From the NCBI RefSeq assembly GCF_009696175.1, contig NZ_VUMM01000008.1, positions 1 through 64,000 of the forward strand: 64,000 nt of DNA, in the 5' to 3' direction. Source of the DNA: Floccifex porci. Its GTDB lineage: Bacteria > Bacillota_I > Bacilli_A > Erysipelotrichales > Erysipelotrichaceae. This document shows positions 45,547 through 48,944 of the stretch, in pieces. The number at the start of each line of letters is the position of its first letter. Within the stretch, counting starts at the first letter, position 1. Position numbers and translations under genes: made by a program. The notes below the pieces were generated by a model that was given only the letters and a program-made list of their open reading frames with translations, ran no database searches and was not told the DNA's origin.

Positions 45547-45722
45547 TTTCAAAATCTCCTTTATTCAATAGTAATTTAGAATTTATTAGAATGCAAGTCA
45601 TGCAATTTTATATATTTGTGTGAATAATATATGATTAAATAAAATTCCACAATTCACAAAATTATTATCATTTTTCACATCTTTTAACATAAATGTAATG
45701 TATTTTTGCGTTAGCTTTATTT

Positions 45723-45820
45723 TAATATAGAATCATCAAAGGAAACATAATAAGACCTTTGATAAAATCTTCATACTCTCTTCTCTAAACTGAAAGGCTC
45801 ATGGAAACATGAGTCTTTTT
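45723..45820 (+). ncRNA. Small RNA candidate A (family of three)
   Basis: A -10 TAATAT (45723-45728) is followed seven bases later by stem 1 ATCAAAGG/CCTTTGAT (45735-45742 and 45756-45763), an AU linker, the single-stranded TTCATACTCTCTTCTCTAAA (45770-45789) and a terminator GGCTCATG-GAAA-CATGAGTC with five T. No ORF is present. The transcript would be about 85 bases. The same architecture appears at 45900-46008 and 47877-47988, with stems that differ in sequence but still pair. Confidence 0.72.
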
Positions 45821-45899
45821 GTTTAGAATAAGCCATATTTTTACATAATTTTACACAAAAAAAACAAACCATTTCGATAATAAAACTAATTGATTCCAA

Positions 45900-46008
45900 T
45901 ATAATAGAATCATCAAAGAAATGATTTCTTTGAAAACATAATTTTTTTATTTCTCTTCTCTAATTTGAAATAAAGCATTCAATTTTGAATGCTTTATTTC
46001 ATTTTTTT
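45900..46008 (+). ncRNA. Small RNA candidate B (family of three)
   Basis: A perfect TATAAT (45900-45905), stem 1 TCAAAGAA/TTCTTTGA (45913-45933) with a five-base loop, linker, single-stranded TTCTCTTCTCTAAT (45951-45964) and a perfect 13-pair terminator AAATAAAGCATTC/GAATGCTTTATTT with a T-rich tail. It shares AGAATCATCAAAG just after the -10 box with copy A. It lies between copy A and the glycine riboswitch. Confidence 0.72.
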
Positions 46009-46061
46009 CTTGTCAACTAAAAAAAATTATGGTATTTTTTGAACATTAAGTGTGAACAGAT

Positions 46062-46204
46062 GTTTACAGAAAACAAGCAATTGCTGACCCAAGGGTTTAA
46101 AATCTCAGGTAAAAAAGACTGTAAACGGATCATACTCTGGAGACATCCATTTGGAGGCCGAAGGTGCAATGCGCATGCAGAATCTCTCAGGCAAAAGGAC
46201 AGAG
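46062..46204 (+). ncRNA. Tandem glycine riboswitch, first aptamer degenerate
   Basis: The second aptamer is canonical: P1 CTCTG (46135) pairs with CAGAG (46200), with GCCGAAGGTGCAA and CTCTCAGGCAAAAGGACAGAG as conserved core. Ahead of it GTTTACAG (46062) pairs with CTGTAAAC (46119) and encloses GACCCAAGGGTTTAAAATCTCAGGTAAAAAAGAC, a weak match to the same core. So two aptamers in series, the first diverged. It controls the AGCS symporter gene downstream through the hairpin at 46236-46259. Confidence 0.88.
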
Positions 46205-46235
46205 AAATTATTCGATTTTCTTTTCGTGTGAATTT

Positions 46236-46266
46236 GTGTGTATGCATCTATGTACACACACTTTTT
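46236..46266 (+). terminator. Expression-platform terminator of the glycine riboswitch
   Basis: GTGTGTA pairs with TACACAC around a ten-base loop, followed by TTTTTATTTT, 20 bases before the symporter ribosome binding site. Ligand state of the aptamer would decide whether it forms. Confidence 0.75.
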
Positions 46267-46287
46267 ATTTTGAGGAGGAAGTATAAT

Positions 46288-47751
46288 ATGATTGAAACGA
46301 TTAATTCTTTTTTAAATGGAATCGTATGGGGACCGATTGGTCTATGTCTGTTATTTCTTGCAGGTGTCTGGATGACAATTGTGAACAGAGGATTTCAGAT
46401 CACCCATTTTGCACACTGGATGAAACAAACCATTGGTGCCATTTTTAAAGATTCTCATGTAAGAGCTCATACCGAAAAACACGACAAACAGATCAGCCAG
46501 TTTCAAAGTCTATGTACAGCACTGGCTGCCACTATAGGAACTGGAAACATTGTAGGGGTTTCAACTGCGATTATCAGTGGAGGACCCGGTGCCATTTTCT
46601 GGATGTGGATCATGTCAATTCTGGGAATGATGACCAACTATTCAGAAAACGTTCTAGGTATTTTTTATCGTATCAAAAATAAAAAAGGAGAATGGTCTGG
46701 AGGTGCCATGTATTATCTGGTCAATGGACTGGGTGCAAAAAAAGGATGTAAGACATTGGGAAAAATACTGGCTTTATTATTCAGCTGTTTTTGTATCTTG
46801 GCTAGCTTTGGGATTGGAAACATTGCCCAGGTCAATTCCATTTCTGGAAATTTATTTTCTGCCTTTTCCATTCCAACCTATATTACAGGAATTCTCCTTG
46901 TATTCTTAACCGGAATTGTTGTCATTGGAGGAATCAAAAGAGTGGCTCTGGTAACCGAAAAACTGGTTCCATTTATGGCCGTCATTTATATATTAGGTGC
47001 ACTTGGAATTATTGCCATTCACGGAAACAGGATTCCCGCTGCTTTTCTTTCCATATTTAAAGGAGCTTTTGGTCTTTCTTCTATTAAAGGAGGAATTTTA
47101 GGCTATGGTTTAAAAAGTGCCATTGTATGGGGATTTAAAAGAGGAGCTTTTTCAAATGAAGCTGGTTTAGGATCTTCGGTCATGGTTCATTCCAGTTCCA
47201 ATGTGAAAGAACCTGTACAACAAGGTATGTGGGGAATCTTTGAAGTCTTTGCCGACACCATTGTTGTATGTACATTAACAGCTTTAGTTGTCCTGACAAG
47301 TGGATTCTTTGATTTAGAAACAGGTAAACAGATTGTAGATATTTCTGCTTCTTCCCTTGTTGGACAAGCCTTTGGAAATGTTTTCGGACCAATTGGACCG
47401 ATGTTTATTGCCATTGCGATATTGATGTTTGCCTTCTCTACTGTTTTAGGATGGTCCCATTATGGTGGTAAAAGTGTTGAATATTTATTAGGTGAAAAAG
47501 CCGTCGTATTTTATCATCTGATATTCTGTGGAATGTCCTTTTTCTCCAGCACAATGGACCTTACACTTGCCTGGGATCTGTCCGATACTTTTAATGGACT
47601 TATGATGATTCCAAACTTAATAGGAGTCCTTGCCTGTTCTGGTACCGTTATGGCTATCACAAAAAACTATACCGATCGAGTCTTTAAACAGAAAGATATC
47701 AAACCTATGTATTCTGCTTATCCAGAAATACAAAAGGAACAAGAATCCTAA
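46288..47751 (+). CDS. Alanine/glycine:cation symporter (AGCS family)
   Basis: A 487-residue, roughly ten-segment sodium symporter. Family motifs: FQSLCTALAATIGTGNIVGVSTAI near residue 70 (substrate/sodium loop), GGPGAIFWMWIMSILGMMTNYSEN near 95 and AFSNEAGLGSSVMVHSS near 290. The glycine riboswitch in front identifies glycine as the controlling ligand and probably a substrate. The ATG at 46288 has GAGGAGG upstream. The frame is open to 46039, but that part is the riboswitch and is not coding. Confidence 0.93.
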   Translation: MIETINSFLNGIVWGPIGLCLLFLAGVWMTIVNRGFQITHFAHWMKQTIGAIFKDSHVRAHTEKHDKQISQFQSLCTALAATIGTGNIVGVSTAIISGGPGAIFWMWIMSILGMMTNYSENVLGIFYRIKNKKGEWSGGAMYYLVNGLGAKKGCKTLGKILALLFSCFCILASFGIGNIAQVNSISGNLFSAFSIPTYITGILLVFLTGIVVIGGIKRVALVTEKLVPFMAVIYILGALGIIAIHGNRIPAAFLSIFKGAFGLSSIKGGILGYGLKSAIVWGFKRGAFSNEAGLGSSVMVHSSSNVKEPVQQGMWGIFEVFADTIVVCTLTALVVLTSGFFDLETGKQIVDISASSLVGQAFGNVFGPIGPMFIAIAILMFAFSTVLGWSHYGGKSVEYLLGEKAVVFYHLIFCGMSFFSSTMDLTLAWDLSDTFNGLMMIPNLIGVLACSGTVMAITKNYTDRVFKQKDIKPMYSAYPEIQKEQES

Positions 47752-47770
47752 AACACAGTTCGCTGTGTTT
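47751..47770 (+). terminator. Terminator of the glycine symporter gene
   Basis: AAACACAG and CTGTGTTT pair around a TTCG tetraloop, followed by a T run, immediately at the stop codon. Confidence 0.9.
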
Positions 47771-47876
47771 TTTATTTTCCCAAATTCTTTTATATTTAAC
47801 CCATTTTTACCAAATTCATATAAAAAACTCACAAAGTATAACACAATCATAAGATAGTTTTACGATAACTTTATCC

Positions 47877-47988
47877 TATTATAGAATCAACAAAGGGGAT
47901 AGAAAATAATAGGTAAGGCCCTTTGTTCAAAATAAATTTTTCATACTCTCTTCTCTAAAAAGAAAAAGCACTCTTCGGAGTGTTTTTT
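47877..47988 (+). ncRNA. Small RNA candidate C (family of three)
   Basis: TATTAT (47877-47882), then AGAATCAA, stem 1 AACAAAGGG/CCCTTTGTT (47889-47927) with a 21-base loop, linker, the same 20 bases TTCATACTCTCTTCTCTAAA as copy A (47940-47959), and a terminator CACTC-TTCG-GAGTG with a T run. A and C also share TTTRCGWTARCTTTAT just upstream of the -10. The terminator is shared with the convergent gene at 47990. Confidence 0.72.
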
Positions 47989-48944
47989 CATTTTATAATA
48001 TCACAATGTTCTAAAACCCAGCTTAATCCTAATATTCGATCCTGATCTTCAAAAGAAACATATACTTTATTTCCTTCCTGTTTATAGATTATTCCTTCTT
48101 TATATACGGGGTGAATCACAATACGATCCAGATAACCTTTTTCCATCTCTTCTTTTTCCAATGTAAAATAAGCATAGGCTCTTTCCCTTGAGCAATCCCA
48201 GGCATCGTATATTTTATATTCTCCATTGATTTTCTTTAAACAGGTAATATGGTTTTTTCCTGTATACAACAATACAGGTCCCTGTAAATCTTTTATTTTT
48301 TTAGAAAACTGGTAAACATTTAAAACATTCGCTAAAGGTTTATGTTTTATAAAATGATTGATTTCCAGTACTTTTTCAATGACTTCTATATGATTTAAAT
48401 GAATTCGATTCATTTTATAAGCCACTATCGCAATTTGATCCAGTGCCTCGTGCCAGTTGATATTCAAACTATGACTGATTGCTCGTATCGAACAGTCTTC
48501 GCTTAGATTTCCATTTGGATTGGGATTGGAATATTGAAAAGTAGAAGTAGATGTATTTTCATGTTTTAAAATATTATATTGATAGTCATAATGAAAATCT
48601 TTTATATACATCTCATATTCTTCAAATGGATCTAAATATTCTGGATTTATAATTCCATACAAAATTCCATGAACAAAAGCATAATAATGACTTCCTCTTT
48701 TCAGTAAAGCATATCCTTTATAATCTTTAGGATCATGAAAACTATATCCCATTTCCTTTAATAAACATTTTTTATTTTTTTCATCTTCACTGGGACCATT
48801 TCCATATTTATGTAATACATCAATATAAGAGTCAAACATTGTCTTCCATTTACAATTTTCTAATATTCCTATCGCATTTAAACATTCAAAAAAAGAACTT
48901 TCTTCTTTGATTTTTGGACAAATGGTTTTATAAATATATTTCAT
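47988..48944 (-). CDS. Putative papain-like cysteine peptidase-fold protein
   Basis: A 318-residue soluble protein without signal peptide. Near residues 146-160, NGNLSEDCSIRAISHSL resembles the active-site helix of C39/papain-fold enzymes (Cys151), followed by GKNHITCL (His232) and YDAWD (Asp247), a plausible Cys-His-Asp triad in the right order. The N-terminal 140 residues are unassigned. It may be a peptidase, amidase or deamidase; I do not recognise the family. The ATG is six bases after TAAAAT and has no ribosome site, so it may be leaderless. Single gene. Confidence 0.6.
   Translation of the reverse strand: MKYIYKTICPKIKEESSFFECLNAIGILENCKWKTMFDSYIDVLHKYGNGPSEDEKNKKCLLKEMGYSFHDPKDYKGYALLKRGSHYYAFVHGILYGIINPEYLDPFEEYEMYIKDFHYDYQYNILKHENTSTSTFQYSNPNPNGNLSEDCSIRAISHSLNINWHEALDQIAIVAYKMNRIHLNHIEVIEKVLEINHFIKHKPLANVLNVYQFSKKIKDLQGPVLLYTGKNHITCLKKINGEYKIYDAWDCSRERAYAYFTLEKEEMEKGYLDRIVIHPVYKEGIIYKQEGNKVYVSFEDQDRILGLSWVLEHCDIIK

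Follow-up and report, generated by a model that had tools for sequence, protein, structure and literature searches.

Predicted small RNAs with strands that fit ribosome-binding sites form a promoter-defined family in Erysipelotrichales, with a CssR-type protein as candidate regulator

Within a 64,000-nucleotide stretch of the Floccifex porci genome (contig NZ_VUMM01000008.1, positions 1 to 64,000; hereafter the window), one layout recurs three times around a glycine-controlled symporter gene, raising the question of what these loci encode, what controls them and whether they belong to the symporter. An earlier note, made from the letters alone, had described each copy as a -10 box, the heptamer AGAATCA, a stem, a CU-rich block and a terminator. 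The -10 boxes, stems, CU blocks and terminators are indeed where it had placed them, and the whole loci cover 45723-45821 (copy 1), 45900-46007 (copy 2) and 47877-47989 (copy 3), with the parts listed in Table 1. Judged by this layout of promoter, 5' hairpin, unpaired CU-rich strand and terminator, the three copies are predicted to be stand-alone small-RNA genes. AGAATCA does precede the stems, but rather than acting in the RNA it is more likely a promoter discriminator; if transcription begins some 6-7 nt downstream of TATNAT, the 5' end of the RNA would be AUCAAAG or AACAAAG, at the base of the stem. The block said to share 20 bases between two copies is identical in copies 1 and 3 over 19 nt (UUCAUACUCUCUUCUCUAA), with UUUCUCUUCUCUAA in its place in copy 2. 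The pattern AGAATCA..TCTCTTCTCTAA has three sites in the whole 2.02-Mb genome, all of them window copies, and none in the reversed control. At the gathering threshold of Rfam, the only match at the window copies was a glycine riboswitch at 46127-46212. This riboswitch scores 58 bits with RF00504 and 66.9 bits with RF03166 (glycine-GGAnGA), below the cut-off of the latter, and a Na/alanine-type symporter gene (PF01235) lies downstream of it at 46288-47751.

Table 1. Parts of the three window copies, and the further copies in the same genome.
Feature	Position	Strand	Basis or remark
Copy 1 regulator box TCACATCTTTTAACA	45675..45689	+	candidate site; TCACA position-locked upstream of stem core
Copy 1 -10 element TAATAT	45723..45728	+	conserved column in alignment of 19 promoters
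Copy 1 5' hairpin AUCAAAGG/CCUUUGAU	45735..45763	+	folds; own-arm preference
Copy 1 predicted RNA	about 45735-45821	+	
Copy 1 open strand UUCAUACUCUCUUCUCUAA (anti-start codon and anti-SD)	45770..45788	+	folds: unpaired or partly paired
Copy 1 intrinsic terminator	45790..45826	+	stem and U run
Copy 2 regulator box TTACATAATTTTACA	45841..45855	+	half-sites at -73/-63, about one turn further upstream
Copy 2 -10 element TATAAT	45900..45905	+	
Copy 2 5' hairpin UCAAAGAA/UUCUUUGA	45913..45933	+	folds; arm-swap test
Copy 2 predicted RNA	about 45912-46007	+	
Copy 2 open strand UUUAUUUCUCUUCUCUAA, without CAU beside CU block	45946..45963	+	
Copy 2 intrinsic terminator with U run	45967..46007	+	folds
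Copy 3 regulator box TCACAAAGTATAACA	47829..47843	+	candidate site; direct repeat in upstream alignment
Copy 3 -10 element TATTAT	47877..47882	+	
Copy 3 5' hairpin AACAAAGGG/CCCUUUGUU	47889..47927	+	folds; arm-swap test
Copy 3 predicted RNA	about 47889-47988	+	
Copy 3 open strand UUCAUACUCUCUUCUCUAA	47940..47958	+	
Copy 3 intrinsic terminator	47962..47989	+	folds
Copy 4	G000:C4:~6960		stem GUAAAAG/CUUUUAC
Copy 5	G000:C14:13848		found with R1
Copy 6	G000:C12:24601		found with R1

Alignment of the sequences upstream of the genus copies revealed a direct repeat, TCACA-N5-TNMCA. In nearly every genus member of the initial set, its half-sites lie at -62 and -52 relative to the stem core (copy 2 has TTACA and a shifted repeat). 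The repeat stands about 45-60 bases upstream of the predicted start and is followed by a TANNAT -10 element, with no good -35 box. Searching the genus with the box and TANNAT alone turned up additional loci, copy 4 among them, that resemble small-RNA genes but differ in stem and strand, and the family is best defined by this promoter, TCACA-N5-TNMCA plus TANNAT. A sequence-only promoter model (R1; 18 promoters, 89 positions) was used for wider searches. The pattern AGAATCA..CTCTTCTCT, on the other hand, searched across the family, found true copies in the genus only, because stems and strands change beyond it; a scan of contigs likewise gave true matches solely in the genus MAGs E4_26, SUG1822 and S22M_St_77, the others being chance, and AGAATCAN{3,33}CTTTG, a looser pattern, gave too much noise. 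Many promoters also carry YCCATAAT, resembling another half-site, at about -82 relative to the stem core (45655-45665 in the window is one example), which suggests more than one regulator dimer per promoter.

The earlier note had spoken of a family of three and had suggested looking for homologues in related genomes. These turned up across the family Erysipelotrichaceae and in a second family of the order. Eleven copies with the shared CU strand occur in the five genomes of the genus, and R1 brings the genus total to at least 25 copies in five species, six of them in F. porci itself (three beyond the window copies); two copies in G002 and one in G004 are of the UUCCCUUUCUUAA type. At E<=1e-4, R1 matched 154 of 276 genomes, many of those compared being fragmentary MAGs, and 42 of the 61 genera of Erysipelotrichaceae; at 1e-5, five genomes of the second Erysipelotrichales family matched. 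As the E-values of R1 are rough, matches were judged by the downstream sequence, which is invisible to the model. By eye, about 44 of 46 inspected matches outside the genus were small-RNA-like with a C/CU-rich strand; these 46 were the better-scoring ones, so that the rate may be lower for weaker matches. An intrinsic terminator lay within 130 nt in 87% of the 46 (10-11% of control positions), a G-less C-rich 16-mer in 61% (control 8-11%), and terminator, C-rich strand and 5' hairpin together in 54% (control 0.5-0.7%). One genome, G075, has six near-identical UUCAUAUCUCUCUCC-type copies on separate contigs (L153, L178-L182).

The 5' hairpin is kept while its sequence drifts, as follows from an arm-swap test on the 42 distinct stems of 70 members: arms of the same stem paired at -8.8 kcal/mol and swapped arms at -5.0 (s.d. 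0.32), and 0 of 5000 permutations did as well. The compensating stem changes reported earlier hold across unlike copies, but not for the core of the CAAAG class, where CAAAG/CUUUG is invariant, only edge pairs change (on both sides in few cells), and the only clear two-sided change is U-A to A-U, in copy 3 and its G003 orthologue. Compensation becomes strong only when unlike copies from the F. porci genome are added (GUAAAAG/CUUUUAC, UUGAGC/GCUCAA, AGAUAA/UUAUCU). In several loci (L143, L144, L146, L150) the hairpin loop AAGGGA/AAGAGA could pair with (U)CUCUU/CCCUU just 5' of CAUA, and loop and strand partner show matching changes between genera; a pseudoknot gating the strand is possible.

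Which regulator might read the box? Among eight genes with OmpR-type DNA-binding domains in the F. porci genome, one (G000:C34:81602-82258), beside its histidine kinase gene and glmM, encodes a CssR-type protein whose DNA-binding domain scores 103 bits against the solved CssR (PDB 7cx5), the next best reaching 64 bits; NCBIfam failed to separate the OmpR-type regulators, all scores being below cut-offs. The gene was detected in 252 of 273 genomes, with 68-100% identity among the full-length matches listed. Its co-occurrence with R1 is uninformative, since nearly all genomes have the gene and most of those without it are fragmentary MAGs; some fragmentary genomes in which no CssR-like gene was detected (G001, G076, G205, G221, G229, G241 and G198) nevertheless have R1 matches. 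The CssR box of Bacillus subtilis is TTTTCACA (PMC6749698), and CssRS activates htrA genes (PMC12826053). Here, four of the five genus htrA promoters contain the half-site TCACATAATTT or TCACATATTTT, at a level that 0.3-0.6% of 200-nt windows reach; these are half-sites only, and the full R1 model gives no score on the genus htrA promoters. In one genome of the second family, G290, the htrA promoter itself is the top R1 match. A search for the box upstream of cssR, and of the other OmpR-type regulator genes, gave nothing. We consider it probable that a CssR-type response regulator controls the family promoters.

Another OmpR-family protein (PhoP/PhoB-type, WalR-type or VanR-like) could drive the same small RNAs in response to phosphate or cell-wall signals, a reading that we hold to be unlikely. 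PhoP and WalR boxes are likewise TTNACA-like direct repeats, but with an 11-bp period, against 10 bp here. One of the eight OmpR-type genes follows phoU, and a box TCACATAATTTTCCA stands at a gene for an NlpC/P60 protein with choline-binding repeats; proteins other than CssR are nearest to the phoU-linked and to one VanR-like regulator. CssR is favored both by the link to htrA and by the solved DNA-binding domain that comes closest.

The strand that follows the hairpin reads as the complement of a translation start. Its commonest cores are UUCAUACUCUCUUCUCU in the genus Floccifex and UUCAUAUCUCUCUCC in other genera, which on the opposite strand give AGAGAAGAGAGUAUGAA and GGAGAGAGAUAUGAA, the latter consisting of a Shine-Dalgarno (SD) sequence, a 6-nt spacer and AUG. 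G content in the open-strand region is 6%, against 14% in the window. UCAUA is present in 39 of 70 members (shuffling expects 11, maximum 22), and CAU in 24 of 25 genus members and 28 of 45 others. Pairing the CU-rich strand with ribosome-binding sites (RBSs), a check proposed in the earlier note, revealed a preference for them over coding stretches among 50 window genes, with mean binding of the copy-1 strand at -8.9 and -4.8 kcal/mol, respectively. In the five copies that carry UUCAUA, shuffling this part alone weakened the fit, with 1-4 of 60 shuffles doing as well; when the whole strand was shuffled, 6-19 of 150 did as well in these copies, a moderate remaining effect, so that CU composition accounts for part of it. 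RBS pairing is fairly good for shuffled CU seeds too, and individual targets cannot therefore be named. These features suggest a strand that fits RBSs, often with UUCAUA set to meet AUG, and hence translational repression. The symporter RBS (at about 46263-46295) ranks near the top of the 50 window genes in predicted pairing with the strands of copies 1 and 6.

If instead the strands mimicked the 16S 3' tail or covered SD sequences broadly, with no defined mRNAs, the RNAs would be generic dampers of translation. CCUCCUUUCUA, CUCCUUUCUA or CUCCUUUCU does occur in several members' strands, as in the 16S 3' tail, and the strands pair with many RBSs; yet UUCAUA is conserved beside the CU block, its base order improves the fit, and hairpins and strands diversify among copies. 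We hold this reading to be improbable. We regard it as very improbable that the copies are cis-acting leaders or attenuators of neighboring genes, although the glycine-controlled symporter gene is preceded by copies 1 and 2, and its G003 orthologue by one copy. Every copy has a terminator of its own, the gene following copy 3, its G003 orthologue or copy 4 runs towards it, the glycine riboswitch is distinct from the copies, and neighbors vary among members; the leader reading was rejected on these grounds. The tie to the symporter is incidental, as other members lie elsewhere and several converge with a neighboring gene. Mobile or repetitive, MITE-like remnants devoid of RNA function were rejected as scarcely credible, since despite multiple copies, near-identical in G075, bodies, stems and terminators vary while promoter, strand and pairing are kept, and the distribution is order-wide.

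The idea at the heart of the earlier note, a real small-RNA family with an RBS-covering CU strand, is thus well supported computationally by homologues across family and order, the conserved promoter, the arm-swap test, the preference for RBSs and the lack of an Rfam match. Having computed gene layout, promoter, hairpins, strand, terminators and conservation, we infer from them the transcription, regulator, signal, repression and its targets as follows. On balance the three loci are probably sibling small RNAs of one stress regulon, under CssR-type control and blocking RBSs. The phosphorylated CssR-type regulator would bind TCACA-N5-TNMCA, some 45-60 bases before the start, and activate a promoter with a TANNAT -10 element and no good -35. 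Each RNA of 85-110 nt would start at the base of a protective 5' hairpin, followed by an exposed C/U-rich, G-poor strand and an intrinsic terminator. The strand UUCAUA-N-CUCUCUUCUCU or UUCAUAUCUCUCUCC, as the complement of SD, spacer and AUG, would base-pair with the translation start regions of certain mRNAs and keep ribosomes from entering. These mRNAs would be blocked when the envelope/secretion stress system is on, the same system raising HtrA.

The earlier note knew of no named family that fits, and neither the window copies nor 20 further loci brought any Rfam small-RNA family up to its gathering score; a permissive scan of 45600-48050 (E up to 5) likewise gave nothing relevant. Close functional precedents had nonetheless been missed. 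Streptococcal csRNAs (ccn genes) were found through a response-regulator repeat and terminator in intergenic regions (PMC3091779); there are 2-6 per genome, with two stem-loops around an unpaired anti-SD/anti-AUG strand (PMC3091779, PMC4507080), CAU in 53 of 61 and sizes of 51-202 nt (PMC3091779, PMC4507080, PMC12826053), and their regulator CiaR controls htrA too (PMC12826053). In Listeria, LhrC1-5 are multicopy RNAs induced by the two-component system LisRK that bind RBSs through CU-rich motifs (PMC4132741), and their induction requires the promoter region upstream of -53 (PMC4132741). The Erysipelotrichales plan parallels both, but box and candidate regulator are different and sequence kinship is not detectable. 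It shares with CiaR-csRNAs the direct repeat upstream of an intergenic promoter, the stem-loop, the unpaired anti-SD strand, the terminator and the several copies per genome, but the box is TCACA-N5-TNMCA, with a 10-bp period, rather than TTTAAG-N5-TTTAAG (found with <=2 mismatches in 0 of 49 family promoters), the candidate regulator is CssR-type, order and sequence differ, and some genera have C-rich loop hairpins and UAUCCCCUUA strands. With LhrC it shares multicopy RNAs whose CU-rich strand fits RBSs, and a two-component regulator (a candidate one here), but the CU motifs of an LhrC RNA are redundant and number three, spread over hairpin, single strand and terminator, against one in the linker of the window copies, the regulator differs, and there is no Rfam-level similarity. 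Lacking the CiaR box and any Rfam match, the Erysipelotrichales RNAs fall outside both known families on the features tested. B. subtilis CssRS resembles the present system in the CssR-type DNA-binding domain, the TTTTCACA-like half-site and perhaps htrA as target; no small-RNA arm of CssRS was found in the literature searched, nor, in the open-access literature, any report of these RNAs in Erysipelotrichales.

Apparently, then, this is a large and undescribed family of small regulatory RNAs in Erysipelotrichales gut bacteria, which are common and whose post-transcriptional control seems hardly described. We lean slightly towards an order-wide regulon of secretion or envelope stress, in which a highly conserved CssR-type regulator would act mainly through rapidly diversifying anti-RBS small RNAs, as a third and apparently separate design of the CiaR-csRNA/LisR-LhrC type; the strand types CUCUUCUC, UUCCCUUUC, CUCUCUCC and UAUCCCCUUA may serve different target sets. 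If so, an htrA-controlling two-component system with multicopy anti-SD small RNAs would recur in Streptococcus and Erysipelotrichales, with LisR-LhrC as a related case, posing the question of convergence or an old Firmicutes strategy for shutting down the translation of chosen proteins under envelope stress. Since one promoter rule locates small-RNA genes in at least 42 genera, the whole regulon can be tested together.

Protein genes may belong to the regulon as well. An 89-aa ORF with no Pfam match, with orthologues at L126 1209-1478 (-) and L127 1595-1864 (+), bears a TCACA-N5-TNMCA-type box in its promoter in two species and is likely a protein member. In the F. porci genome, the gene at L095 1641-2888, preceded by TCACATAATTTTCCATAATTT, encodes the secreted protein with choline-binding repeats and an NlpC/P60 domain mentioned above, possibly a cell-wall hydrolase in the regulon.
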